Shown in pieces: positions 18,930-31,126 of a DNA stretch of 61,434 nucleotides. Source of the DNA: Pseudomonadota bacterium (lineage in GTDB: Bacteria; Desulfobacterota; Syntrophorhabdia; Syntrophorhabdales; Syntrophorhabdaceae). The position numbers and the translations under genes were made by a program. The stretch is taken from positions 1 to 61,434 of the forward strand of contig JAPLKA010000100.1 in assembly GCA_026388315.1 (NCBI GenBank). The letters run 5' to 3'. Within the stretch, counting starts at the first letter, position 1; every line of letters begins with the position of its first letter. The notes under the pieces are model-generated. The model was not told the DNA's origin, ran no database searches, and saw only the letters and a list, made by a program, of their open reading frames with translations.

Positions 18930-21597
18930 TTTTTTCAGGGCTATGACTTTTCTCAATAATAATGCCATGTTTTGTAATGTAATCTTTAATAAAGCCTGCC
19001 TCATCATCTTTTGTTTTTAAGTTCAAATCTATTTTTGCCTCTTTCAAATGGTCCAGAATCTCTTTATATACGGGGCCCTCCTTAATATCCATATGCTTGA
19101 GATCGATCCCCGTGAGGAGGGGCTTACAGGAATCTTTATAGGTAATATAGTTCGATATGGATTTTTTTATCTCTTCCGATCTTGTTTTTGACATGATGAA
19201 AAGTTTTGCCTCTAAGGAAAGGGGTTCAAGCTGTTTGTAAATTTCGCTCTTTTTCATCATCTGCAGACCGATGGCAAATTTGAGCATTGTTTCTCCTATA
19301 TGTTTTACATTTTCAACGAGCTGTTTTTTGAAAGTCTCCGTCGTTTCTGTTTTTCTGCAAAACTCAAGGACATCCTCTTCTTTCACGTGGTCTACGAGTC
19401 CCAGGATATAGAACTGGATACTGTCGCACGGTTTTCCGCTATAGAGCAATTCATACCATTTCAGCACATTGTGCATATTAATGAACAACCTTTCCTTCTC
19501 TTTATCGAATGCGAGGGTAGGGTATATGAACCGGAGCAGGTCAAGTTCCTGCAATCTTTTAAGAATTTTTTCAGGGCTGTCTTCCATAAGGGTGAGGGTA
19601 AGCTCGGTCCAGATCCTTTTACCCTTTATCTTTGAGAGAAAGTTCATCTTTATCGCATTCTTTATGAGATTAAGCGTATGTTTTCCGATGTGAAAACCGA
19701 ATCTGTGTTCAAACCTTATCGCCCTGAAAACCCTTGTAGGGTCTTCAACAAAGCTCAGACTGTGCAGTACTCTGATAGCCCTCTCCTTTATGTCTCTCTG
19801 AGCACCGAAGAAGTCGATTAACTGTCCGAAGGTATTTTTGTTGAGGGCTATAGCAAGGGTGTTTATGGTAAAGTCCCTCCGGTGCAAATCAAGTTTGAGT
19901 GAGCTGTGTTCCACTGTCGGGAGCGCTGCCGGCGCTTTATAATATTCGAGCCGGGCCGTTGCAATATCAATCTTGAAGCCGTCCGGATAGATTACCTTTG
20001 CCGTTGCGAACTCTTTGTGCGGTCTCACTTTCACCTTGAATATCTCTGACATCTTTTCGGCAAATATGATTCCATCACCTTCGATGACAATATCGATATC
20101 ATTATTCTCATTACGTAAAAGGAGGTCTCTTACAAACCCCCCCACAAGGTAGGCATGATACCCCATCTTATCGGCGAGGCTCCCGATTTCAATGAGTTTT
20201 TTCAATGTTTCCCTGTCTAACCTTTCTTCCATGAGTTTCTTTACGCTTTTCCGTTTTTTATACATATCGTGAAACTCAAGCTTGCCAACGACTGCCTTGG
20301 TGATTTCATCCTCTAATATTCTCAGGAGGTCTGTTCTGGTAATTGCGCCTACCAGCTTCCCTTCTCTTGTAACAGGCAGGAATCTCTGATTATTCCCGAT
20401 AAGAAATTCCTTTACCTTTTCGATAGAGTCCTCCGGTTTGACCGTTGAAGACTCGGTAGACATGTATTCCCGCACAGGTATGTTTTCCAGTTTGTGGAAC
20501 GCTGCCTTTTCAACAATCTGTTTTGTAATCACGCCCACAACCTTTTCATTTGACACGACGGGCAGGGCGTTTATGTTGTATTTGACCATAATGCTCTTTG
20601 CTTCAGCGATGGGGCATTCGGCATCAATTGATTTCACAGGGAAGAACATGATGTCCCTTGCCTTCCAGGGAGGTGTGATATTGTATTTAAGAAGCCGTAT
20701 AAGCTTATCCTTAGCTTCGATGATGGTCATGTCCTTCACTGTAGAAGAGGCAGCCTCCTTGTGGCCCCCGCCTCCGAATAAAGAAAGGATATGCCCTACA
20801 TCAACTTCTGTTATTCTGCTTCTCCCGATCATATATACCCTGTCTTCCATCCTGAAAAGGGCAAAGACGACATTGATGTTTTCCATATCCCTGAATTTAT
20901 GAACCACCACCGCAAGGTCACCTACATATTCTTCTGTTGAGCCCTCAGTGATCACTATGTCTATGCCGTTTATATTATAGATGGAGGCGTTGCTGATGAG
21001 GTCATTCAGAAGGAATACCTGTTCCGGTGTCAATTCTTTTACGAGCATATCTGAAACGATATTTACGTTTGCACCCTTTGAGAGCAGGAAGGATGCGGCT
21101 GCGAAATCTTCGATTGTGGTGGAAGGGAAAAGAAAGCTTCCCGTTTCTTCATATATGCCGAGCATAATCACCGTTGCTTCTTCCGGGGATATGGTAAGAT
21201 TACGCTCCTTAATTATGGATATGAGAATTGATACTGTTGCACCTGCATGTCTTATAAATTCTACATCCCCTTTGATATCGTCACTGGTCGAGGGATGATG
21301 GTCATATATGTGGATTTTGGCCTTTCCTGCCTCCACAACCTTTGCGAATTCCCCGATCCTTCTCTTTTGCCTGGTATCGACAAGTATAAGCGTATCAATT
21401 GCGTTATAATCTATGCGCTTCGTTTTTTCGATATCAAATATATAGAGGGTGGAGTGAATGAGAAATTCTCTCAGGGTTTTTTCCTGTGAGCCGGGAAATG
21501 CAAGGATCGCATCCGGGTATAGTTTCTTCGCAGCAACCATGGAGGAGAGGGAATCGAAGTCAGCGTTGTTGTGGGAGGTGATAACCTTCATGACCAA
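18907..21597 (-). CDS. DHH phosphoesterase / CBS / tRNA nucleotidyltransferase fusion
   Basis: 896 residues. Residues 1-300 are a DHH/DHHA1 phosphoesterase (HNNADFDSLSSM, 'IYDHHPSTSDD', 'LFGGGGHKEAASSTV'). About 310-440 are two CBS domains that usually bind adenylates ('ALPVVSNEKVVGVITKQ', 'RFLPVTREGKLVGAITRTDL'). About 470-880 are a class II poly(A) polymerase/CCA-enzyme (AYLVGGFVRDLLLRNENND with the catalytic DID, then 'RRDFTINTLAIALN' and 'VEDPTRVFRAIRFEHRFG'). Such fusions in Aquifex and deltaproteobacteria include A-adding tRNA nucleotidyltransferases. It probably completes or repairs tRNA 3' ends, with adenylate sensing by the CBS pair. The last codons come from repeat sequence. Confidence 0.93.
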   Translation of the reverse strand: MVMKVITSHNNADFDSLSSMVAAKKLYPDAILAFPGSQEKTLREFLIHSTLYIFDIEKTKRIDYNAIDTLILVDTRQKRRIGEFAKVVEAGKAKIHIYDHHPSTSDDIKGDVEFIRHAGATVSILISIIKERNLTISPEEATVIMLGIYEETGSFLFPSTTIEDFAAASFLLSKGANVNIVSDMLVKELTPEQVFLLNDLISNASIYNINGIDIVITEGSTEEYVGDLAVVVHKFRDMENINVVFALFRMEDRVYMIGRSRITEVDVGHILSLFGGGGHKEAASSTVKDMTIIEAKDKLIRLLKYNITPPWKARDIMFFPVKSIDAECPIAEAKSIMVKYNINALPVVSNEKVVGVITKQIVEKAAFHKLENIPVREYMSTESSTVKPEDSIEKVKEFLIGNNQRFLPVTREGKLVGAITRTDLLRILEDEITKAVVGKLEFHDMYKKRKSVKKLMEERLDRETLKKLIEIGSLADKMGYHAYLVGGFVRDLLLRNENNDIDIVIEGDGIIFAEKMSEIFKVKVRPHKEFATAKVIYPDGFKIDIATARLEYYKAPAALPTVEHSSLKLDLHRRDFTINTLAIALNKNTFGQLIDFFGAQRDIKERAIRVLHSLSFVEDPTRVFRAIRFEHRFGFHIGKHTLNLIKNAIKMNFLSKIKGKRIWTELTLTLMEDSPEKILKRLQELDLLRFIYPTLAFDKEKERLFINMHNVLKWYELLYSGKPCDSIQFYILGLVDHVKEEDVLEFCRKTETTETFKKQLVENVKHIGETMLKFAIGLQMMKKSEIYKQLEPLSLEAKLFIMSKTRSEEIKKSISNYITYKDSCKPLLTGIDLKHMDIKEGPVYKEILDHLKEAKIDLNLKTKDDEAGFIKDYITKHGIIIEKSHSPEKTVMSENI

Positions 21598-22469
21598 TAT
21601 TATTAGTTATTGGCGTCGATTATGCAAGAACGAAATTTAATATAACGCATACCGGTCAACCATCAAACCATCATGGTGCCGTGCTACTCTATTTCACTGG
21701 GGTTTGGTCCGACCCCAACCGGATACCGGATGTAAGGAAATGTTCCCTTCCACTCATCAGCTCCACATTTTTGACCCGTTCTACCGGCTCAATTCGCTTG
21801 ATGTGCAAGGGCGGAGGCTACCCGAAGATGTTCATACCTGCACATCACCCCTTTCGGGGACGCTCGTTTTCGCCAAGACGGGTGGCCCCCCAAAAAATGT
21901 TCCGATATTCGTTCCAGGGATACATTTCCTTAACAACAACCACCAAGACTGGGGAATTGCGAATATCGGATTGCGTAACCTAAGTTACAAATTGCCCCCA
22001 ATACAGCACTTTAAGCCCAAAAAGTGGATTAAGTATTGATGGATTAAGGGGTAAGGGTTAGAAGATAATCCATAATCCCTACTCCATAATCCAGTATCCT
22101 CAAGAGTGCGGGTTTTTCCTGTCTAATGTCAAGAATAAAGATTTGACCCCAGCCAGTTTCTCTGAAAAAGTGAAATCTCGTAAAATGGTTCCTATATTGA
22201 CTTTACGAAGATTTTAGAAGTGGTCGCAACTGTTGCGGCAAATCTCTCCGTGGCGGTGACGGAAACCGTTTCCGTCTGAGTAATTCAGGTAAATAAGTGA
22301 TTGAGTAATTAAGTGATTAAGTGATTAACTGCTTTCGGGTCACCCCGGTTCTCAATCGGACGTCCCACGATCACCCTCTCCGCTATTCGCTCTACGTTGT
22401 ATATCTTTACTTTCGCAATTGCTTTATTTAGATGTGAGGAAAGAAAATGCTTGCAATATCTCGATTAAA
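21598..22469. other. gene-free region left of the defence cassette
   Basis: About 0.9 kb without a convincing gene. It holds the leftward promoter-like pair at 21639-21666, small stem-loops around 21850-21890 (CCCCTTTCGGGG), runs of AAGTGATTAAGTGATT at about 22298-22325, and a hairpin GACGGAAA-CCG-TTTCCGTC at 22258-22276. Open frames over 21681-22039 look random. It resembles decayed mobile DNA at an island boundary. Confidence 0.5.
21639..21666 (-). promoter_or_regulatory. possible promoter for the DHH-CBS-CCA gene
   Basis: On the minus strand TTGATG (21666-21661), 16 bp, TATATT (21644-21639), giving a leader of about 35 nt. The match is moderate and no clear ribosome binding site follows. 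Confidence 0.4.
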
Positions 22470-22607
22470 TTAGGAAAATAAAGTATTCAATTCATCATGC
22501 CAGGTCAGAAAGGCGCATAATGCGCAATGTGTGTAAGGGGGGCAACGATCTATCAAGTTATCAAGCGTATAATTTCCAATCGGAGGCAAAGAGATATTGA
22601 AGGACAT
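22470..22607 (-). CDS. possible 45-aa Cys-containing ORF downstream of the receiver gene
   Basis: A short minus-strand frame starts with MSFNISLPPIGNYTLDN and continues with CPPYTHCALCAFLTWHDELN. Three cysteines and a histidine are close together, as in a small metal site. Its frame is open upstream into the receiver gene. I do not recognise a family, and no strong ribosome binding site is seen. It could be the remnant of a longer gene or chance. Confidence 0.25.
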   Translation of the reverse strand: MSFNISLPPIGNYTLDNLIDRCPPYTHCALCAFLTWHDELNTLFS

Positions 22608-22635
22608 GCCCGTCCCATGGGCTATTCCCATAAAA

Positions 22636-24315
22636 TTACGTTGACTCTGATCCTTTAAATTCATGTAAATTGGCAATTGTTATTCCTACCCTGCCGGCAT
22701 TGCCGAATGCGAAATTTGCTACTCTTTGTGTATAATTTTCTTTCTGAGTACACAGAAAATCTATCTGAATATTTTGCTGTTTGTATTTAACCTTTAAAGG
22801 TTTCTTAAGATTTAATCTTGCAGAATCAATATGTAAACTGAAAGGCTTGCCTTCCCATTCTATGCACAAAACGCCATCGTTGGGGCCATTAATGAAAGAT
22901 TGAAAACCGTCTTCACCTGTCAAAAGTCCGCTCTTTAAATTCTTTTCTTTACCAGCAACGAAAAGAAAATGATTTTTGATCTTCTCGGGACGAAAGCAAT
23001 CACAATGGGAGGTAATACAGAGCAAATAGGGAATATCAAGACACGATGTCTTAAAAATATCTCCAAAACGTAAAGAAGACGGCGGTTTCGGTTCCCAATT
23101 GAGAATTGAATATCGTTTGTTTAAACGCGCCAAATCATTCTTAATATTATTACCTTTATCTTCTTTGATTTTATTAAGTTGTTGCTCAAAATTAATTTTT
23201 GTTTTATAACTTTCGATAACTTTCAGTGTTTCGGGAGTATGCGCATGCCAATCCCCGACAACCTGAGAATTCCAAATATCTTTCATAAAAAATGAAAATT
23301 GCTCACCAGAATCGCCATTCCCTTCCACGCAAGTTTGGTGATAAAAAAAGGCATCCTCATTGATAGCATTAAGTTCGCGACCTAGATTTTTTGCTTTATC
23401 TCTAAAATGATTTCTAAACTCAAGCCCCAATAGCGATACGAAATTATTGGGCCTATTATAAATGGCCTTCGATAAGATGGAATATAGTTGGTCAGGTTTA
23501 ACGGGGGCGGTCCCTGTTTTCTGAAAAATATGGACCAGTGCGTTGTTTATAAGGAAAGAATAAGGACACTCAGAGCTTTGTACGGGTAAAATACGATTAT
23601 CTTGTTTTTTCTTTCCAGATTTAAGATATTTCTGATTTCCAAGTACAAAGTAAGTCAATATATCTTTCAATTCAGGTCGTTTAAAAAACTCATTGCCAGC
23701 ACTTTCAATGGCAGACTTTGCATTTTGACCGAATTTTTCGTGGATGCCTCTCTTAATCTCTTTTAATAGTTCCTTTTCCTTGAGCGGCTGTTTGATCAAT
23801 TCAAGAATTTTCTCGGCTATTTTAACAAAAACATTTTCGTCGAAGTCCTCGATCCTTTCTTCAAGCGTATCAATAAAACTATCGATCGCCTCTTTTATAA
23901 TGTTTTGTTGAGCCTGAGAATACCAAAAATAAGAGAATACGTTTTGAGCTACTTCATCAAGATTTGGAACATGAGTATAAATACAAATGAATGGCAATCC
24001 TGACTCTTGGACTGCCTGATCAAGAATACGAAGGGCGCTTTTAAATTTAATCCCCCCTTTGTTGAGTTCCCAATCGAGGATCAACAGGTCTTTTTTCCCT
24101 AAGTTTAGTTTTTGTTCCTTTTCCCATTTTCTTTTGTTTGAAAATCTGGCAAGCTCCAGAGAACAGCCAGCTTTCCTGAAGGAGGAAAAAAGCTCTTTTG
24201 AAATTTCTTTGTTCCCTCTTTGCTTTGTATAGGGTTCAACGAATTCGTCATCGATCGCATAAGCTGTCCTAATAGAGTTCCTTACAATTTTTTCCGCAAC
24301 AAGTTCAAAGCTCAT
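22636..24315 (-). CDS. receiver-domain-like protein of a methylation-linked conflict system
   Basis: 559 residues. The first 130 read as a CheY-like receiver: 'TAYAIDDEF' with D22/D23 for the acidic pocket, 'KKDLLILDWELN' with D81 in the phospho-acceptor position, and 'LPFICIYTHVP' with T114. The usual switch Lys is not evident. The remaining 430 residues match nothing I can name; they contain a 'YLLCITSHCDCFRPEKI' block and end in a mixed region. There are no membrane spans or DNA-binding motif. The start overlaps the GHKL gene by 11 bp, so it is coupled to a kinase-like partner. Likely an output or effector protein. AT-rich codon use differs from neighbouring core genes. Confidence 0.8.
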   Translation of the reverse strand: MSFELVAEKIVRNSIRTAYAIDDEFVEPYTKQRGNKEISKELFSSFRKAGCSLELARFSNKRKWEKEQKLNLGKKDLLILDWELNKGGIKFKSALRILDQAVQESGLPFICIYTHVPNLDEVAQNVFSYFWYSQAQQNIIKEAIDSFIDTLEERIEDFDENVFVKIAEKILELIKQPLKEKELLKEIKRGIHEKFGQNAKSAIESAGNEFFKRPELKDILTYFVLGNQKYLKSGKKKQDNRILPVQSSECPYSFLINNALVHIFQKTGTAPVKPDQLYSILSKAIYNRPNNFVSLLGLEFRNHFRDKAKNLGRELNAINEDAFFYHQTCVEGNGDSGEQFSFFMKDIWNSQVVGDWHAHTPETLKVIESYKTKINFEQQLNKIKEDKGNNIKNDLARLNKRYSILNWEPKPPSSLRFGDIFKTSCLDIPYLLCITSHCDCFRPEKIKNHFLFVAGKEKNLKSGLLTGEDGFQSFINGPNDGVLCIEWEGKPFSLHIDSARLNLKKPLKVKYKQQNIQIDFLCTQKENYTQRVANFAFGNAGRVGITIANLHEFKGSEST

Positions 24316-27205
24316 TATCGGTCTCCTCGTATGGTTCGATTATAAAACAGGCCCCCCCAAGTTTATTTAAGGTCCTATCATTTGTTGCATATATTTCATA
24401 TCCGATCGTATGTAAGTTTGTTTTGGCCAAATACAGTCCGATTCCTCGACCTCCCGGGCGTCTTGAAAAAAACAACGTGAAAATGTCTTCGAGGTATACG
24501 TCCTCTATTTTGGCACCCGAATTAAGAATAAGTATTTTTCCATCCTTCATACGTATTTCTATTTTTCTTTCTTTTACAGGAAGAAGCCAATACAGGGCAT
24601 TATTAATTACATTAATAAATACGGGCTTGATCACCGATTCGAATGTAAAGAATTTGTACTCATTAAATGCGTTATCAGTAGAAAAATTTATTCTATGCCT
24701 TCTAAACCGTGCGCTGAAAAACTTTTTTAGATAATCGCTGATTTCGGAACCCATTATTTCGGTTCTCGTTCTTCGTGAGGTTCTATAAAGTGGTGTGAGC
24801 AACTGGTGATTGGTTTCAAGATGATCAAATGCTTGCCTTAGCTGATTATAGTTATATTTAACATCTGGATTCCTATCCGAAAATTGCTTGAAGAATTTAA
24901 TGGCCTGATCCACTTCTGCATATAACACATTGAATTGATGATCAATTATTTCAATTGCCATACCCAATTGAGACAGCTCATGCATGGCTTCGACTTTCTT
25001 CTCTATCTTTTCATATTCTTCTTTGTACCAACCGACCAATGCATCATCATCTATTTCAGTGTCCAACCCTTCTAAATGATCCGTTAAGTTCCCGTACTTA
25101 TTCTGGATATCGTTTAGATACTCGTTGTAAAGGCTATCCAAACGAGATAGCAACGCATTGTAGTCAGTATCCTCATTATCATCACTACTGAATTTTCCTG
25201 AATCATATGAAAACGCCCCGGATACGTCGTTGATATCAAACTTTATTTTATCAATAAGCGGTTCAATCGAATTTTCGATGCGCTTTTTATAGCGCAGTAA
25301 AGTGCTTGTAAGGTCGGATTGATAGCTTTTCAACCTTCGTGTAAACTCGCTTTCCAAATTATCCTGTGAAAAATTCTTCTGTAATTCAGCTATGAGTTCA
25401 TCACATTTATCGACCAACCCCATTGCCGAAGCAAACTTTTCCCTATAGTCGGCATATCGTTCCTTGAGCGAATCGGTAAGGGAAATTCTGGCAGGCTTGC
25501 TCAATCTTAACTTCCCGATCAACATTTTATTGTTTCTAATTTCGGCAACAAGTCTCGCTGCATCGCTATACGCTATTCTCGGTTGATGCATATCCGTCTT
25601 CAAGCGCTCGTACAAGCTTTCCGTCTGTGTCTTCAACTGTACTACATTGGCTGAATATTCCCTAAGTTCCCTTTTAAATTTCGTAATGCTTTGTTTGCTT
25701 TTCTTTTTTTCGGCGGCAAGAATTCTTGCATTTATCTTTTTGATCTCTTCAAGTTGCTCCTCGCGAGAAGTGGGAAGCTCACCCGGATTAACGGTGCGAA
25801 AGTAACGAACTGACAAATCGGTAAAGAATTCCTTCAGATCCCTTCTAAATTCTCGATCGGCTCTGTTTGCAATGAATCCTTCTCGCCCTGCCTTATCTAT
25901 GAGGTCAGGATTTCTTTCTCGCGATATTTCGATATAGCCGAATAAACGCCTATGGCTGAATTGATAATAGGTTGCACTACGCGATCTACGTTCTTCGAAT
26001 TCCAGAAAATCATACTCCGTCCTTCCGTAGGGCAGAACTCTGAATCCGTCACGATAGATATATATACCACCGAATTGCATGCCCTTACGAGTAAGTATGT
26101 CAAATTGTTCTCTTGGTAGCTTAGTATTTTTTGCATCTCCTTCTATGAATCCGAACTCGATTGTAAGCGGACCATACGGTGTTTTGCCGGGAGGTCTGTT
26201 AGGACGAAAAAATACTTCGAAATTCTGATTAAATACCTGAAGTCTGCCTTTAAATTCTCCTTCCGAATTAAAGTTACCGGAGAGCCAATGATCGGCCGCA
26301 AACATATCATCGTGAGTAAAAAACAATGATTTCGAAATTAGATCATATGACCCCGTATCCGAGTGGATATTAAAAGATGCTTGAAAAAGCTGTTGTTCTC
26401 CCTTGAAGGCATTTGTGATACCGTTCAGCGAGGAACGCAGGTATTTAACGGTGCCGTCGACATCGCTAGACCAGGCTCCTTCGATGCTCAATTCCAGAAG
26501 CTGTGGATGAGGATCGAATATGATGAACATCGTACCGTGAAAATCATCATCAAAAAAACCGAAGAGTCGATCTTCCAGAATAAATTCAGGAAACCGGACT
26601 GTTTTTAGAGTCCTTCTGATAGTCAAGGCGAGATCGGTATGTTCTTCCCACGTATCCGAATTCAAATTTTCTTCAAAATCACTTAATAGTGCATTCAAGG
26701 AATCCTTTATGGGAGCATTTCGATTGAGGGTTCTTATCGGAATATCCAGATCTTCAAGGTATAAATTATAATTACTCAAAATGCGCCAATCTACGAAGAG
26801 CATCATGCAAGGATGGCTTTTCTTTTTTGTCAACATCAGCATCGGTGATCCGAGATAGGCTACTGATAAACGACCAATTCCTTTCTCGCCGAGTGGGATT
26901 CTGGGTGGCTTACCGAGCCGGTCGTTTTCAGTTAATTCTTGGGCTCCTCGGGCTTTCGACTCGGTTCCCAGAACAATCCATTTATCAAGGAGATCTTCTT
27001 TGGACATACCGGTACCATCATCGGAAAGCGTAAAGATTGGAGACCCCAGTCCTTTGTAACCTTCCCTGTATAAATCGCATGACAGAGTGTCGGCATATGC
27101 ATCATAGCCGTTTTTCCAAAGTTCCGTTATGGCGGTAGGCAGATCGGCTATTTGACCCTGACCCAAATGATCTACCGCTCGCGCTTTGGTTCTAAATTTT
27201 GCCAT
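24305..27205 (-). CDS. MORC-like GHKL ATPase with C-terminal histidine-kinase-like module
   Basis: 966 residues. The N-terminal GHKL ATPase has an intact N box (TELWKNGYDAYA, E28/N32/D35), G1 (LSDDGTGMSKED, D63) and G2 (LGEKGIGRLS), with 'KWIVLGTESK' between, as in MutL/MORC/Hsp90-type ATPases. Residues about 450-740 are charged coiled coil. Then comes an H-box-like helix 'MAIEIIDHQFNVLYAEV' (H756) and a second HATPase (VINNALYWL, N869; LNSGAKIED in place of DxGxGI; GGRGIGLYLAK, 918-928). Prokaryotic MORC-type ATPases are known from restriction-modification loci. It overlaps dcm by 14 bp and the receiver gene by 11 bp. It probably senses DNA and signals to the receiver protein; that is inference. 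Confidence 0.85.
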   Translation of the reverse strand: MAKFRTKARAVDHLGQGQIADLPTAITELWKNGYDAYADTLSCDLYREGYKGLGSPIFTLSDDGTGMSKEDLLDKWIVLGTESKARGAQELTENDRLGKPPRIPLGEKGIGRLSVAYLGSPMLMLTKKKSHPCMMLFVDWRILSNYNLYLEDLDIPIRTLNRNAPIKDSLNALLSDFEENLNSDTWEEHTDLALTIRRTLKTVRFPEFILEDRLFGFFDDDFHGTMFIIFDPHPQLLELSIEGAWSSDVDGTVKYLRSSLNGITNAFKGEQQLFQASFNIHSDTGSYDLISKSLFFTHDDMFAADHWLSGNFNSEGEFKGRLQVFNQNFEVFFRPNRPPGKTPYGPLTIEFGFIEGDAKNTKLPREQFDILTRKGMQFGGIYIYRDGFRVLPYGRTEYDFLEFEERRSRSATYYQFSHRRLFGYIEISRERNPDLIDKAGREGFIANRADREFRRDLKEFFTDLSVRYFRTVNPGELPTSREEQLEEIKKINARILAAEKKKSKQSITKFKRELREYSANVVQLKTQTESLYERLKTDMHQPRIAYSDAARLVAEIRNNKMLIGKLRLSKPARISLTDSLKERYADYREKFASAMGLVDKCDELIAELQKNFSQDNLESEFTRRLKSYQSDLTSTLLRYKKRIENSIEPLIDKIKFDINDVSGAFSYDSGKFSSDDNEDTDYNALLSRLDSLYNEYLNDIQNKYGNLTDHLEGLDTEIDDDALVGWYKEEYEKIEKKVEAMHELSQLGMAIEIIDHQFNVLYAEVDQAIKFFKQFSDRNPDVKYNYNQLRQAFDHLETNHQLLTPLYRTSRRTRTEIMGSEISDYLKKFFSARFRRHRINFSTDNAFNEYKFFTFESVIKPVFINVINNALYWLLPVKERKIEIRMKDGKILILNSGAKIEDVYLEDIFTLFFSRRPGGRGIGLYLAKTNLHTIGYEIYATNDRTLNKLGGACFIIEPYEETDNEL

Positions 27206-28313
27206 TTTTGTGCTCCACGGTTTTGACGTGTTTTACGAAATGCTTGCCGAACGCCTTTGCTACCGGCACAGGAACCGCATTACCAATCTGACGAGCCATG
27301 GAATTGAGAGAACCAGTAAAAACAAAGCTATTCGGGAAACCCTGGAGCCTTGCAGCTTCTCTAACCGTGATTGCGCGGTCTTGCTCTGGGTGCCCGAACC
27401 TCCCGTTTGAATAACTGATGCAGCGAGTTGTAAGCCCTGGTGCGGGCTCATTCCATGCAAGCCGTGTATAGCAATCCGAATGTCCCTCGTACCGTTCTCC
27501 GTTCTCTTTCTTCGCATAGCATCTTGGCAAAAGCCTATCAGGCCAGTCTCGTCGCCCCTGAGGACCTGTATGTTCGATGCGCTCTAAATTTAATGCTGAT
27601 AGCTTTGCCGCACGGTGGTTGGGGTACTTCCGCTTGTCTGGATGCTCAGCGCCATGTGCCACTGGAGGAAAGCTTCCGATGGCATCTCGGACTGTGATAT
27701 ATGCCTTGGAAGTTTTCGGACCGTGTGTAAGCTCAGGCAAAGTTATCTCGCCCAACCTGCTCGCCATCAGCACCAAGCGTCTGCGAACCTGAGCCGCCCC
27801 GTAGTCTTGTGCTGTTATGACATCAAAAGCAACCGAGTATTTGTCTTTATTGAGTTGATCTACAAAAGCGGTGAAGGGTCCACCATCCTCAAGGGAAACA
27901 TTTTGTATACCTGGCACATTCTCAATAAAAATTAATTCGGGTAGACATGAATGAACAACGTCAGCAAAATAATTCAGCAGTCCACGTCTCTCATCCAAAG
28001 AAACTGCTTTTTTTGTATTAGTTTTCTGCTTGGTAAATGGTTGACACGGGGCACAACCACAGAAGAGTTTTATCTCTGTCTGGTTGCTGTAGCAAGCCTC
28101 TATCTGTTGAATATCTATCACTTCGATGGGTTCATTAATAACAGGGACCCCTGGGAAATTCTTTTGAAAAGTGCGTATGGCATCAGGGCACGAATCAACC
28201 GCCAATGCGTGCTGAATACCGGCCTGCCGGAACCCGACGCTCGTCCCACCACAACCGGAGAAGAAGTCGTAAACCCGGATGGGTGGTATTGTCGAATTAT
28301 GTTGTTTCTTCAC
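27192..28313 (-). CDS. dcm: DNA (cytosine-5) methyltransferase
   Basis: 373 residues from the GTG at 28313, chosen because AGGTGG lies just upstream. The frame is open to 28364, inside vsr. C5-methyltransferase motifs occur in order: I (VYDFFSGCGGTSVGF), IV (GCAPCQPF, catalytic C90), VI (FIENVPG, E131), VIII (QVRRRLVLMA), IX and X (RQIGNAVPVPVAKAFG). All catalytic residues are present. The target-recognition region lies at about residues 190-300 (motif VIII ends near 195), and its specificity cannot be read. It overlaps vsr by 17 bp and the ATPase gene by 14 bp, so it belongs to the same transcript. It marks host DNA and may be sensed by the GHKL protein. Confidence 0.96.
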   Translation of the reverse strand: MKKQHNSTIPPIRVYDFFSGCGGTSVGFRQAGIQHALAVDSCPDAIRTFQKNFPGVPVINEPIEVIDIQQIEACYSNQTEIKLFCGCAPCQPFTKQKTNTKKAVSLDERRGLLNYFADVVHSCLPELIFIENVPGIQNVSLEDGGPFTAFVDQLNKDKYSVAFDVITAQDYGAAQVRRRLVLMASRLGEITLPELTHGPKTSKAYITVRDAIGSFPPVAHGAEHPDKRKYPNHRAAKLSALNLERIEHTGPQGRRDWPDRLLPRCYAKKENGERYEGHSDCYTRLAWNEPAPGLTTRCISYSNGRFGHPEQDRAITVREAARLQGFPNSFVFTGSLNSMARQIGNAVPVPVAKAFGKHFVKHVKTVEHKNGKI

Positions 28314-28806
28314 AATCCACCTGTCTTTCCGGCTTAACTTTATGCAGCGGACCCGAAATCTCAAGGAAGCTTCTTTCTGATCTCAGGAACTTTCCTACAC
28401 GTATGCACACACTGTCAAGCGCTTTCTCGCGGTCAAGCCCAGGTCTACGCACGGAGCATTCCCACACAACCAGAACGCGCCAACCGTCATTGCAAAGCTC
28501 TATCAAAGCCTTAGCATCCCTGATTTTGTTGTTCTGAAGTTTTTCTTGCCACCACTCCATGCGATTTTCAGGAATGGTGGATCGAGCGCACCCATGATAG
28601 TGCCAGAAACATCCGTGAACAAAAATGATGGCTGAGTACTTGGGGAATACCATGTCAGGCTTTCCGGGCAAATGGCGGGCATGAAGACGATAACGGAAGC
28701 CCCGGGCAAAGAGGTTTCGACGGATCTCGGTTTCCAGCTTGGTATTTTTTCCCCGAACCGCCGACATCATGTTGCTTCGCGTCTGTTTGTCTACCGTATC
28801 AGTCAT
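28297..28806 (-). CDS. vsr: Vsr-type mismatch endonuclease
   Basis: 169 residues from the ATG at 28806 (MTDTVDKQTRSNMMSAVRG). Vsr hallmarks are all present: the N-terminal 'DKQTRSNMMSAVRGKNTK', E25, 'LPGKPDMVF' with catalytic D51, and 'FVHGCFWHYHGC' with H65 and H69 plus zinc-binding cysteines. Vsr nicks 5' of T:G mismatches that arise by deamination of 5-methylcytosine, so it normally pairs with a C5-methyltransferase, as here. Some relatives are the cutting subunit of a restriction system; with no other nuclease in this cassette that role is open. Upstream ATG codons at 28842 and 28887 lack support. Confidence 0.95.
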   Translation of the reverse strand: MTDTVDKQTRSNMMSAVRGKNTKLETEIRRNLFARGFRYRLHARHLPGKPDMVFPKYSAIIFVHGCFWHYHGCARSTIPENRMEWWQEKLQNNKIRDAKALIELCNDGWRVLVVWECSVRRPGLDREKALDSVCIRVGKFLRSERSFLEISGPLHKVKPERQVDCEETT

Positions 28807-28816
28807 TTTTTTTGCT

Positions 28817-28966
28817 CTACCTCGTCCGCTTGATATAACCATGGCGTTTGGCTTCCAGATAACCAAATTGGGATGGATTAAAATCATAAGAAAGTAGTTG
28901 CATCAATATTTCTCTCTCGATGATCGAAGGTCTTCTTCCTGATATTACAATAAACCAATACGCCAT
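28817..28966 (-). CDS. 49-aa protein heading the vsr-dcm cassette
   Basis: An ATG at 28966 follows a near-ideal AGGAGGGGTAGCA ribosome binding site. The 49-codon frame (MAYWFIVISGRRPSIIEREI..., ending YLEAKRHGYIKRTR) stops 10 bp before the vsr start. The product is mixed hydrophobic/basic with an Arg/Lys-rich C-terminus. I do not recognise it. Its ribosome binding site is stronger than that of vsr itself, so vsr may rely on translation through this ORF. It may be a leader peptide or a small component of the system. Confidence 0.55.
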   Translation of the reverse strand: MAYWFIVISGRRPSIIEREILMQLLSYDFNPSQFGYLEAKRHGYIKRTR

Positions 28967-29090
28967 TGCTACCCCTCCTGCACGATTGATTGCGCCCGAC
29001 GCATCTTCCTATCCTGAAACGTTGTTGGATAAATCATTTTCCTACTTTTGTAGACTGTTTGTAAATCATTTTTTGACAGAAAATTGAGGG

Positions 29091-29279
29091 TCATCCATTA
29101 GAGGGCATCCTGTCAAGAAATAAATCTTCTTTTGCTGCAAAAACCTGACGGTTTGCAGGAAGTCTGGAAAAATCAAAGAGATGTTCTTCGCTCATTTCAC
29201 TTGTCATTCTCCTCTCCGAAAGAGATGGGACACCCTTTACTATTTCAATAACTTTTCCCATTTCAGTTTTTTTAAGCAT
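29091..29279 (-). CDS. doubtful 62-aa ORF
   Basis: The minus-strand frame from ATG 29279 reads MLKKTEMGKVIEIVKG and ends FLDRMPSNG. Composition looks protein-like (Lys/Glu-rich, few rare codons), but there is no ribosome binding site and no family I recognise. It may be a gene remnant near the island edge. Confidence 0.25.
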   Translation of the reverse strand: MLKKTEMGKVIEIVKGVPSLSERRMTSEMSEEHLFDFSRLPANRQVFAAKEDLFLDRMPSNG

Positions 29280-29430
29280 TTCTGGCCGAAGGGATTTTTT
29301 GATGCATGGCGGACCACCGTGGGACGTGGGACGTCCGCTCCGCTCGGAAGTAGGACGTTCATTCGCCTTGTTCATCAGGGCATGGAGCGCCAAAAGCAGC
29401 AACTCCCCAAACCAACCATGTCATGCAGTA

Positions 29431-29559
29431 ATACCAATTCGGATTCGCTTAGAGAACGCGAAGACGAAGGGTTGCCAACCGGAGGTGTAGCAGCGCTACA
29501 TTGAGGATTGTGCGGCCCCGATGACGACAAAGTTACACTGAGTGAAAACGAATTGGTTT
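29431..29559. repeat. palindrome-ended repeat, copy 2
   Basis: It begins ATACCAATTCGGATTC and ends CGAATTGGTTT. It matches the reverse complement of 2476-2600 at both ends and in internal blocks (AGAACG, GATGACGAC, ACAAAGTTA), with a more diverged centre. It has no coding capacity and lies beside the 3' end of the DUF4143 ATPase gene. Confidence 0.65.
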
Positions 29560-29582
29560 TGAACCTGAAAGGATATTGCATG

Positions 29583-30716
29583 TTATAAAACAAAATCCAA
29601 ATAATTTTCCTGATTTATTATCGAAAATGTCGCATCCTTGTATTCGTTGAGCCAGGATTTTGGCTTTTTATGCTTCTTCAGTTGAGACCACTTGAACTCG
29701 TAGCCGAAGAGCTTACCATCCCGTTCTTCCAGGAAGTCCAGCTCCTGGCCATCGTAGGTACGCCAGAAATAAAACGAACCGTATAGGGACTGATAGGCAT
29801 ATTTTTTCATCCGCTCGGCAACGAGAAAGTTTTCCCAGAGCTGCCCTACATCGTTCCGGCTGTCAAGGGGATTAAACATGGCAATAATTGCATTGCGGAT
29901 CCCATTGTCCAGAAAATAGTATTTTGCTTTTGTAACAACCTCTTTGCGCAGATTCCTGCTAAACCCGCCGATACGCTTGATTACGAAAGCCTTTTCAAAT
30001 ATATCGAGATAGCGGCCTACAGTCTTTACATCGAGCTTCACCTGCGTGGCAATTTCATTGAGAGATACCTGGCTTCCTACCTGAAAAGCAATCAGCTTGA
30101 GCATGTCAAGGAGCACCCTGGACGCCTTGACTCTATCAAGGGCAAGTACATCTTTCAGGAGGTACGAGTTTACGAGTTCATCAAGGATATCTATTTTATC
30201 TTTCCGGTTTTTTGCCGTAATAACTTCAGGATAGGACCCATATACAAGATACTCTTCGAGCCGTTCTTTTAATTCATGACGGTTGTAGAGCGAGACGAGT
30301 TCCTGTTGTGCAATCGGATAAAGAACCACCGTATTTTTTCTTCCGGTTAAGGGTTCACCCACAGCACCGGCAAGATCAAAAGAGGACGAACCTGTGGCAA
30401 TAATGGAAATGTCGGGAACGTTATCGATAATGATTTTTAAACCCTTACCGACATTAGGGATGTTTTGTGCCTCATCAATCGCAATGAGATTGTAACCGGT
30501 GGCATATTCAAGAATCCGATTAAAATCCTGAGAGCCGAGAACCTGCTGCACCCTGATGTTATCACCGGAATCAACTTTAAACTTCAGGTTGGTTGTAGAC
30601 AAATAAGCATTCAAGAGAGTTGTTTTTCCAACTCGCCGCGGGCCATAAATAATAAGAGCCTTGCCTGGTCTTAACAAGTCGTTTATGCTGTATGAACGAG
30701 CTATCATAGAACTCAT
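29583..30716 (-). CDS. AAA ATPase with DUF4143 domain
   Basis: 377 residues. AAA_14 ATPase: Walker A GPRRVGKTTLL (residues 25-35), Walker B 'YNLIAIDEAQNI', sensor 'ISIIATGSSSFDLAG'. The C-terminal half is DUF4143 with a small winged-helix ('VSLNEIATQVKLDVKTVGRYL') and a PD-(D/E)xK-like end (DGQELDFLEERDGKLFGYEFKW), which resembles a restriction-nuclease fold. Such ATPases are widespread, mobile and of unclear function. A TATAAT box overlaps the first ATG, so the real start may be the ATG at 30707 (codon 4) on a leaderless mRNA. A 12-bp direct repeat upstream could be an operator. Confidence 0.88.
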   Translation of the reverse strand: MSSMIARSYSINDLLRPGKALIIYGPRRVGKTTLLNAYLSTTNLKFKVDSGDNIRVQQVLGSQDFNRILEYATGYNLIAIDEAQNIPNVGKGLKIIIDNVPDISIIATGSSSFDLAGAVGEPLTGRKNTVVLYPIAQQELVSLYNRHELKERLEEYLVYGSYPEVITAKNRKDKIDILDELVNSYLLKDVLALDRVKASRVLLDMLKLIAFQVGSQVSLNEIATQVKLDVKTVGRYLDIFEKAFVIKRIGGFSRNLRKEVVTKAKYYFLDNGIRNAIIAMFNPLDSRNDVGQLWENFLVAERMKKYAYQSLYGSFYFWRTYDGQELDFLEERDGKLFGYEFKWSQLKKHKKPKSWLNEYKDATFSIINQENYLDFVL

Positions 30717-30772
30717 TATAACTTAAATCCATAAATTAAACAAATTATTTGGAATGACACTCCATAAATTAA
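30715..30772 (-). promoter_or_regulatory. promoter and direct-repeat operator of the AAA ATPase gene
   Basis: On the minus strand: TTGTTT, 17 bp, TATAAT (30720-30715), then seven bases and ATG (30707), which fits a leaderless transcript. Two copies of TTAATTTATGGA (30772-30761 and 30739-30728), spaced 33 bp centre to centre (about three helical turns), flank and overlap the promoter. No ribosome binding site precedes either ATG. The repeats look like a binding site for a repressor, possibly the ATPase's own winged-helix domain. Confidence 0.5.
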
Positions 30773-31126
30773 TATTATTTCTCCACATTTTCCGTTAAAA
30801 AATAGCGATTTTTGATGAATGGCGCGAAGATAAGAACGAGGGCAGCGGAGCAGGGAGCGTAAGGTTTAAACCCAAATATGTTGTTAGGAAGGTGTCGGGG
30901 TATCCCGGAGCAAACCGTCGAGAGGCGAGGAAGCTTGGTCTTTTGCATAAGCAAAAGTTCCGAAGCCGAACGCGAGCGATTGAAGCCGCTGGAGCGGAAT
31001 GAGCGTGTTTGAGAGGGATGGTCCGACACCTATATGATTCTAATGATAAATCCGGGTTTAATTGCGAACACGGTGAGCAACAACAGCGTTCCGGCCATAC
31101 CTTTTCACATTTCGCAATTTCTTGCC
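30773..31126. other. intergenic region between the ATPase gene and xerD
   Basis: About 350 bp with moderate GC, including short inverted words (GTCTTTTGCATAAGCAAAAG near 30930) and no convincing frame. It probably contains the terminator of the housekeeping operon. A typical hairpin with T-tract was not found. Confidence 0.45.

Follow-up and report, generated by a model that had tools for sequence, protein, structure and literature searches.

Cassettes associated with restriction-modification, in which the gene for a HEF_HK protein lies beside one for a Response_reg_2 protein, have been described by Bellieny-Rabelo et al. 2021 (PMC8011034), and in the passages of that work drawn on here, the most frequent place of vsr is after the Response_reg_2 gene, an arrangement that is not obligatory. 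A leader open reading frame (ORF) is not mentioned in these passages, and the word 'small' is absent from the main text of the paper.

A cassette of this published kind, made of vsr, a C5-methyltransferase gene, a gene for a HEF_HK ATPase of the paraMORC type and a Response_reg_2 gene, occupies the minus strand of part of the 61,434-nucleotide stretch of DNA analysed here (hereafter the window). It is headed by a 49-codon ORF, which is probably an ordinary lineage-specific leader ORF in front of a known kind of cassette. The features are given below in the order in which the strand is read:

29036..29065, minus strand: weak promoter-like pair TTTACA-18-GAAAAT, upstream of the ORF
28972..28979, minus strand: Shine-Dalgarno-like AGGAGGGG, 5 nt before the ATG of the ORF
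28817..28966, minus strand: 49-codon ORF (P0001), a frame without family match (PHROGs best E 0.44)
28297..28806, minus strand: vsr, very short patch repair endonuclease, probable start 28806 (PF03852, E=1.8e-29; TIGR00632 from residue 28 of P0002)
27192..28313, minus strand: C5-cytosine DNA methyltransferase (PF00145, E=1.3e-54), overlapping the end of vsr
24305..27205, minus strand: HATPase_c_3 + HEF_HK + HATPase_c protein, paraMORC-type and histidine-kinase-like (PF13589, E=2.3e-11; PF19191, E=1.9e-24; PF02518)
22636..24315, minus strand: Response_reg_2 protein (PF19192, E=2.2e-19)

As in the same passages of PMC8011034, the gene for the HEF_HK ATPase (966 residues) is the neighbour of the Response_reg_2 gene, which it overlaps by 11 nt, a C5 methyltransferase gene lies upstream, the HEF_HK protein carries HATPase_c_3, and vsr is nearby; the difference is that vsr is the first gene here, whereas it mostly follows Response_reg_2 there. 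The methyltransferase is taken to start at GTG 28313, and not at TTG 28364, judging by the start contexts. Several gene orders are found among relatives: methyltransferase, HEF_HK-like, Response_reg_2 and vsr in two genomes of the same family (G011 and G019), where the N-terminal piece of the ATPase is 48-49% identical (full-length relatives are 27-32% identical); methyltransferase (54% identical), ATPase, Response_reg_2, HNH_2 and vsr in G172; methyltransferase, vsr, HEF_HK and Response_reg_2 in G335; and vsr, methyltransferase and HATPase protein in the window's own order in G020, the next gene there having no Pfam match. The four cassette proteins of the window show no recognised restriction nuclease domain, HNH or other, and the HNH_2 gene is a feature of the G172 relative. 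Relatives of the ATPase also occur in three plasmid records, and the HEF_HK protein has no match in viral contigs.

The ORF and the cassette lie in an insert, since in two other genomes of the family (G007 and G010; L233 and L234) the CCA-adding-enzyme gene starts right at the xerC stop, and here about 9.5 kb (about 21592-31126) lie between the two. In a genome of the same genus (G002), other DNA follows xerC. Much of positions 29083-29540, upstream of the ORF, is a mosaic of short repeats that recur in the same genome and in the family; 29435-29508, for instance, shares 92% identity with a copy in G000:C10. A pair of 23-nt inverted repeats (29430-29452 and 29538-29560) suggests a MITE-like element. 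Further upstream, on the same strand, lies a gene for an AAA_14/DUF4143 ATPase (29583-30716) that matches the PADLOC candidate defence model PDC-S01 with E=1.6e-145.

A sequence-only reading of the window had drawn attention to the ORF on the grounds of its strong, well-spaced ribosome site and of a stop 10 bp from vsr, and this anatomy is borne out. Read from 28966 down to 28817, the frame translates into 49 residues followed by TAG; AGGAGGGG precedes the ATG by 5 nt, or by 7 nt if measured from AGGAGG; and 10 nt separate the stop from the vsr ATG at 28806. The region from -30 to +30 around the ORF start is predicted to fold with -10.3 kcal/mol, and predicted folds leave the stretch from the Shine-Dalgarno sequence to the ATG partly paired, with a mean unpaired probability of 0.19-0.39. 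The promoter-like pair listed above is not evidence by itself, because two such sites were found for 1.6 expected; a palindrome noticed by eye, CTACAAAAGTAG, sits in its spacer, directly before the second hexamer.

Our preferred reading, with a probability of about 0.4, is that the ORF is a lineage-specific leader cistron that acts in cis by bringing ribosomes to vsr. Ribosomes would load at the strong AGGAGG site, the 49 codons would be translated (the step that is probable in itself), and termination 10 nt before the vsr ATG would be followed by reinitiation at that ATG, so that the ORF may supply ribosomes to a weakly sited vsr and thereby affect the level of Vsr. The amino acid sequence of the peptide is probably not under selection. 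Next in rank comes a neutral ORF, that is, an AGGAGG and an open frame that both arose by chance in the 5' leader and that, whether translated or not, have no effect on vsr, an explanation that we regard as possible, though on the unlikely side.

The neutral ORF draws support from the fact that the ORF alone is not rare, because Markov models of the window, taken on both strands, expect 0.45-0.87 ORFs of at least 49 codons with AGGAGG and ATG per window. For AGGAGG-(4-10 nt)-ATG pairs of any length the models expect 4.0-5.3 per window, and the real window holds nine on its two strands. The eight pairs other than that of the ORF all start Pfam-matched genes (DUF362, LemA, UDP-glucose dehydrogenase, adenylate kinase, an outer membrane efflux protein, ribosomal S15, a member of the carboxymuconolactone decarboxylase family, and FMN reductase/SCP2), a small sample limited to ATG starts; six further AGGAGG pairs with GTG or TTG fall outside this eight-of-eight comparison. 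These eight genes argue for the leader cistron and against the neutral ORF, as does, against the latter, the reversed-sequence control, which yields one AGGAGG-ATG pair, of 10 codons. If the site is relaxed to five bases (GGAGG or AGGAG), other parts of the window also offer such ORFs, of 51 and 57 codons.

Less ordinary than the ORF itself is its position, which is unlikely by chance: 0.015-0.02 AGGAGG ORFs of 40-99 codons abutting a gene start are expected per window, under a criterion (40-99 codons, AGGAGG, stop next to a gene start) that was defined after the ORF had been seen. When the window is combined with a host sample of 479,119 bases of the same genome (12.6% of 3.8 Mb), there are 24 strong-site ORFs of 30-99 codons, and four of them end next to an ORF downstream, namely ribosomal S15, the 49-codon ORF and two others. 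The rarity of such a position, together with the 10-nt gap between stop and start, favours the leader cistron and tells against a neutral frame. The AGGAGG-ATG signature is a good sign, but for a short ORF it proves nothing by itself, because in the host it also precedes short ORFs that look accidental, and this counts against the leader cistron. The pairs of the host sample open 52 ORFs of at least 100 codons, four open-ended frames and 49 shorter rows, of which 30 lie within longer ORFs and 19 are free (with a few ORFs counted twice); 11 of the free ORFs have at least 40 codons, and among the 10 of these compared to Pfam, four match at E<=0.01, two of them above the curated cut-off. The start signal of the 49-codon ORF may well be genuine.

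The vsr frame has no stop upstream as far as an ATG at 28887, which lies within the ORF, so that the two frames overlap. A long vsr from this ATG was rejected on the Vsr profiles, which begin only at residue 28-29 of the longer frame, that is, at 28806, and position 28806 is therefore the natural start. No good ribosome site stands 4-11 nt before it, the vsr site being a GAGG at 13 nt, with A at the last seven of these 13 positions, as suits a gene fed by a leader. The sequence-only reading had invoked this weak site in support of a translated leader or a small system component, and its weakness is confirmed, but it carries little weight as an argument: 13 of 20 inspected relatives (15 with dcm downstream and five others, with script-set starts of which some may be wrong) have no Shine-Dalgarno sequence of at least four bases 4-11 nt before vsr, and the start here is predicted to be unstructured and is A-rich (-2.7 kcal/mol for -30..+30, z +2.21). 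A weak ribosome site is ordinary for vsr. Since its start is open in this way, vsr may not need help, and this, like the partial pairing and the more stable predicted fold at the start of the ORF, weighs against the leader cistron.

The ORF was also compared with what precedes vsr at other loci. The loci were drawn from the family (11 of 39 genomes with a match, the window's own included), from viral contigs (best 80 of 219) and from species genomes (best 80 of at least 593), giving 170 with enough upstream sequence, of which three are copies of the window and some overlap as pieces of a single place. Among the 167 others, seven have an ORF of 20-95 codons with an AGGAGG, GGAGG or AGGAG site that ends close to where vsr starts. 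Four of these ORFs (L041, L165, L068 and L082) are no more than the in-frame tails of frames exceeding 400 codons, a fifth (L090) is likewise the tail of a frame, one of 130 codons, and the sixth is a 22-codon stretch (L031) overlapping a second vsr-like gene of the window's own genome (G000:C8:16913-17305), which is divergent, with 32% identity. The seventh, in a Thiobacillus MAG (L147), is the sole free-standing-looking case among the 167, a 93-codon ORF with an AGGAG site that ends at the vsr start; it is unlike the ORF of the window and is perhaps a real small gene. In 15 of the other loci vsr is followed by a methyltransferase gene; a free-standing leader with a strong site is absent from all 15, and 12 of them are also without an ORF of at least 130 codons ending at most 40 nt before vsr (three have one), which speaks against the leader cistron. 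Among the matches listed, the closest Vsr (66% identical, Deltaproteobacteria MAG, L113) comes directly after a 790-codon ORF, and the closest one in the viral contigs (59%, L033, among the best 80 of 219) has no upstream ORF listed. When the ORF was compared by phmmer with 63 short upstream ORFs, nothing but the window's own copies scored an E below 1.6. Upstream of vsr homologues, where the original observation proposed to look for conservation, no relative of the frame is present at the loci compared, and no close relative of the ORF/vsr locus was found in the genome sets searched.

Codon statistics are weak either way and indecisive. After correction for composition, the codon z of the ORF is 2.05, for a mean of 1.88 in the cassette genes (leave-one-out, 41 pieces) and 1.10 in 63 spurious island ORFs, and a score trained on the island is equalled by 5% of spurious ORFs; codon usage resembles that of the four cassette genes, with which it is weakly compatible, and vsr and dcm also score low on genome codons. 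This lends some support to the leader cistron, against which stand the 20.6% of spurious island ORFs with a codon z as high as that of the ORF. Measured against the codon usage of the window or of the genome, the ORF resembles non-coding sequence and falls within the spurious range, as a neutral ORF would: with training on the window, 3.5% of 228 real 48-codon pieces fall below it and 36% of 277 spurious ORFs above it, and with training on its own genome, 35% of 242 spurious ORFs score as high. An AlphaFold model (pLDDT 65.9, pTM 0.35), in which 32 of the 49 residues are helical with low confidence, was rejected as a sign of a real fold, being no better than that of a control ORF in antisense (28672-28833, plus strand; pLDDT 63.9, pTM 0.36), and this again suits the neutral ORF. 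All in all, the translated leader of the sequence-only reading is plausible, with a strong start signal, a position unlikely by chance and weakly compatible codon usage behind it.

A less probable explanation, and an improbable one in our view, is that of a functional orphan small protein acting in trans, for example as an inhibitor or adaptor of Vsr, the methyltransferase or the ATPase. The strong start signal, the position in the operon, the cassette-like codon usage and the basic composition of the peptide (pI 9.98, GRAVY -0.30) would suit it, and fast-evolving small proteins can escape homology searches. Against it stand the lack of a confident fold, the absence of the ORF from the eight cassette loci compared (best E 0.21), and the lack of relatives in the libraries and genome sets searched. 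The peptide has no Pfam, NCBIfam or PADLOC match and no helix-turn-helix, and no relative in PDB, in plasmids (best E 3), in phages, in 60 nearer genomes or in 395 genomes of the phylum (its own genome included in each set); the best outside match in these two genome sets has an E of 0.007 over 25 residues. Scans of viral contigs and of 84,980 species, with one genome each, returned no relative either, both with exact octapeptide seeds, which would miss distant relatives. A tblastn-type match (L003; 59% over 17 residues) was dismissed, its E being 0.07, with an internal stop and no matching ORF at that place, and the other outside matches (E 0.007-0.9, short stretches) were set aside on length and E. 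The L003 stretch lies near genes that resemble, by eye, toxin-antitoxin pairs. The suggestion that the ORF encodes a small component of the system, such as an inhibitor or adaptor, is thus unsupported, with no relative in the collections searched and none in the cassette and vsr loci compared. These same negative results fit a neutral ORF, and they suit a role in cis better than a conserved peptide.

Decidedly improbable is a narrower version of the protein hypothesis, a dedicated, fast-evolving, small basic regulator or inhibitor of the Vsr/methyltransferase/paraMORC machinery, elsewhere replaced by unrelated small proteins or lost. A functional peptide would add a new part to a signalling cassette associated with restriction-modification that is poorly understood, but the start signal and the position are the only arguments for such a function. 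Equally improbable is that the ORF is a fragment, the start of a gene cut off at the insertion of the cassette or at a rearrangement, leaving a Shine-Dalgarno sequence and first codons: the insert and the patchwork of short repeats upstream would agree with such an origin, but the peptide is without similarity to anything found, with no homologous protein of greater length in the collections searched, and so is the DNA, for which 28790-29090 has no match in plasmids or phages and 28800-29082 matches only itself at E<=0.001 among the scored candidates (at most 13 per genome) in the 39 genomes of the family.

Three known systems offer themselves for comparison with the leader cistron that we favour. 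Restriction-modification controller (C) proteins are small helix-turn-helix proteins encoded at the head of a cassette; the ORF is likewise a small reading frame heading a modification cassette, but it is without a helix-turn-helix or any other family match. Attenuator leader peptides are encoded by short ORFs before operons, as is the case here, but attenuation is not supported, given the lack of a terminator-like site, an ordinary fold (z +0.53) and the absence of an Rfam match. With translationally coupled leader cistrons, and with the dcm-vsr overlap of E. coli, the locus shares a stop close to the next start and a strong upstream site followed by a weak downstream one, which here stands before an open, A-rich start. 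It differs from them in that the vsr start is not blocked by any predicted structure and that no conserved leader was found. If the ORF is indeed a leader cistron, it would add to the examples in which a strong start upstream feeds a gene that is weakly initiated, and would bear mainly on how vsr is expressed when it heads an operon.
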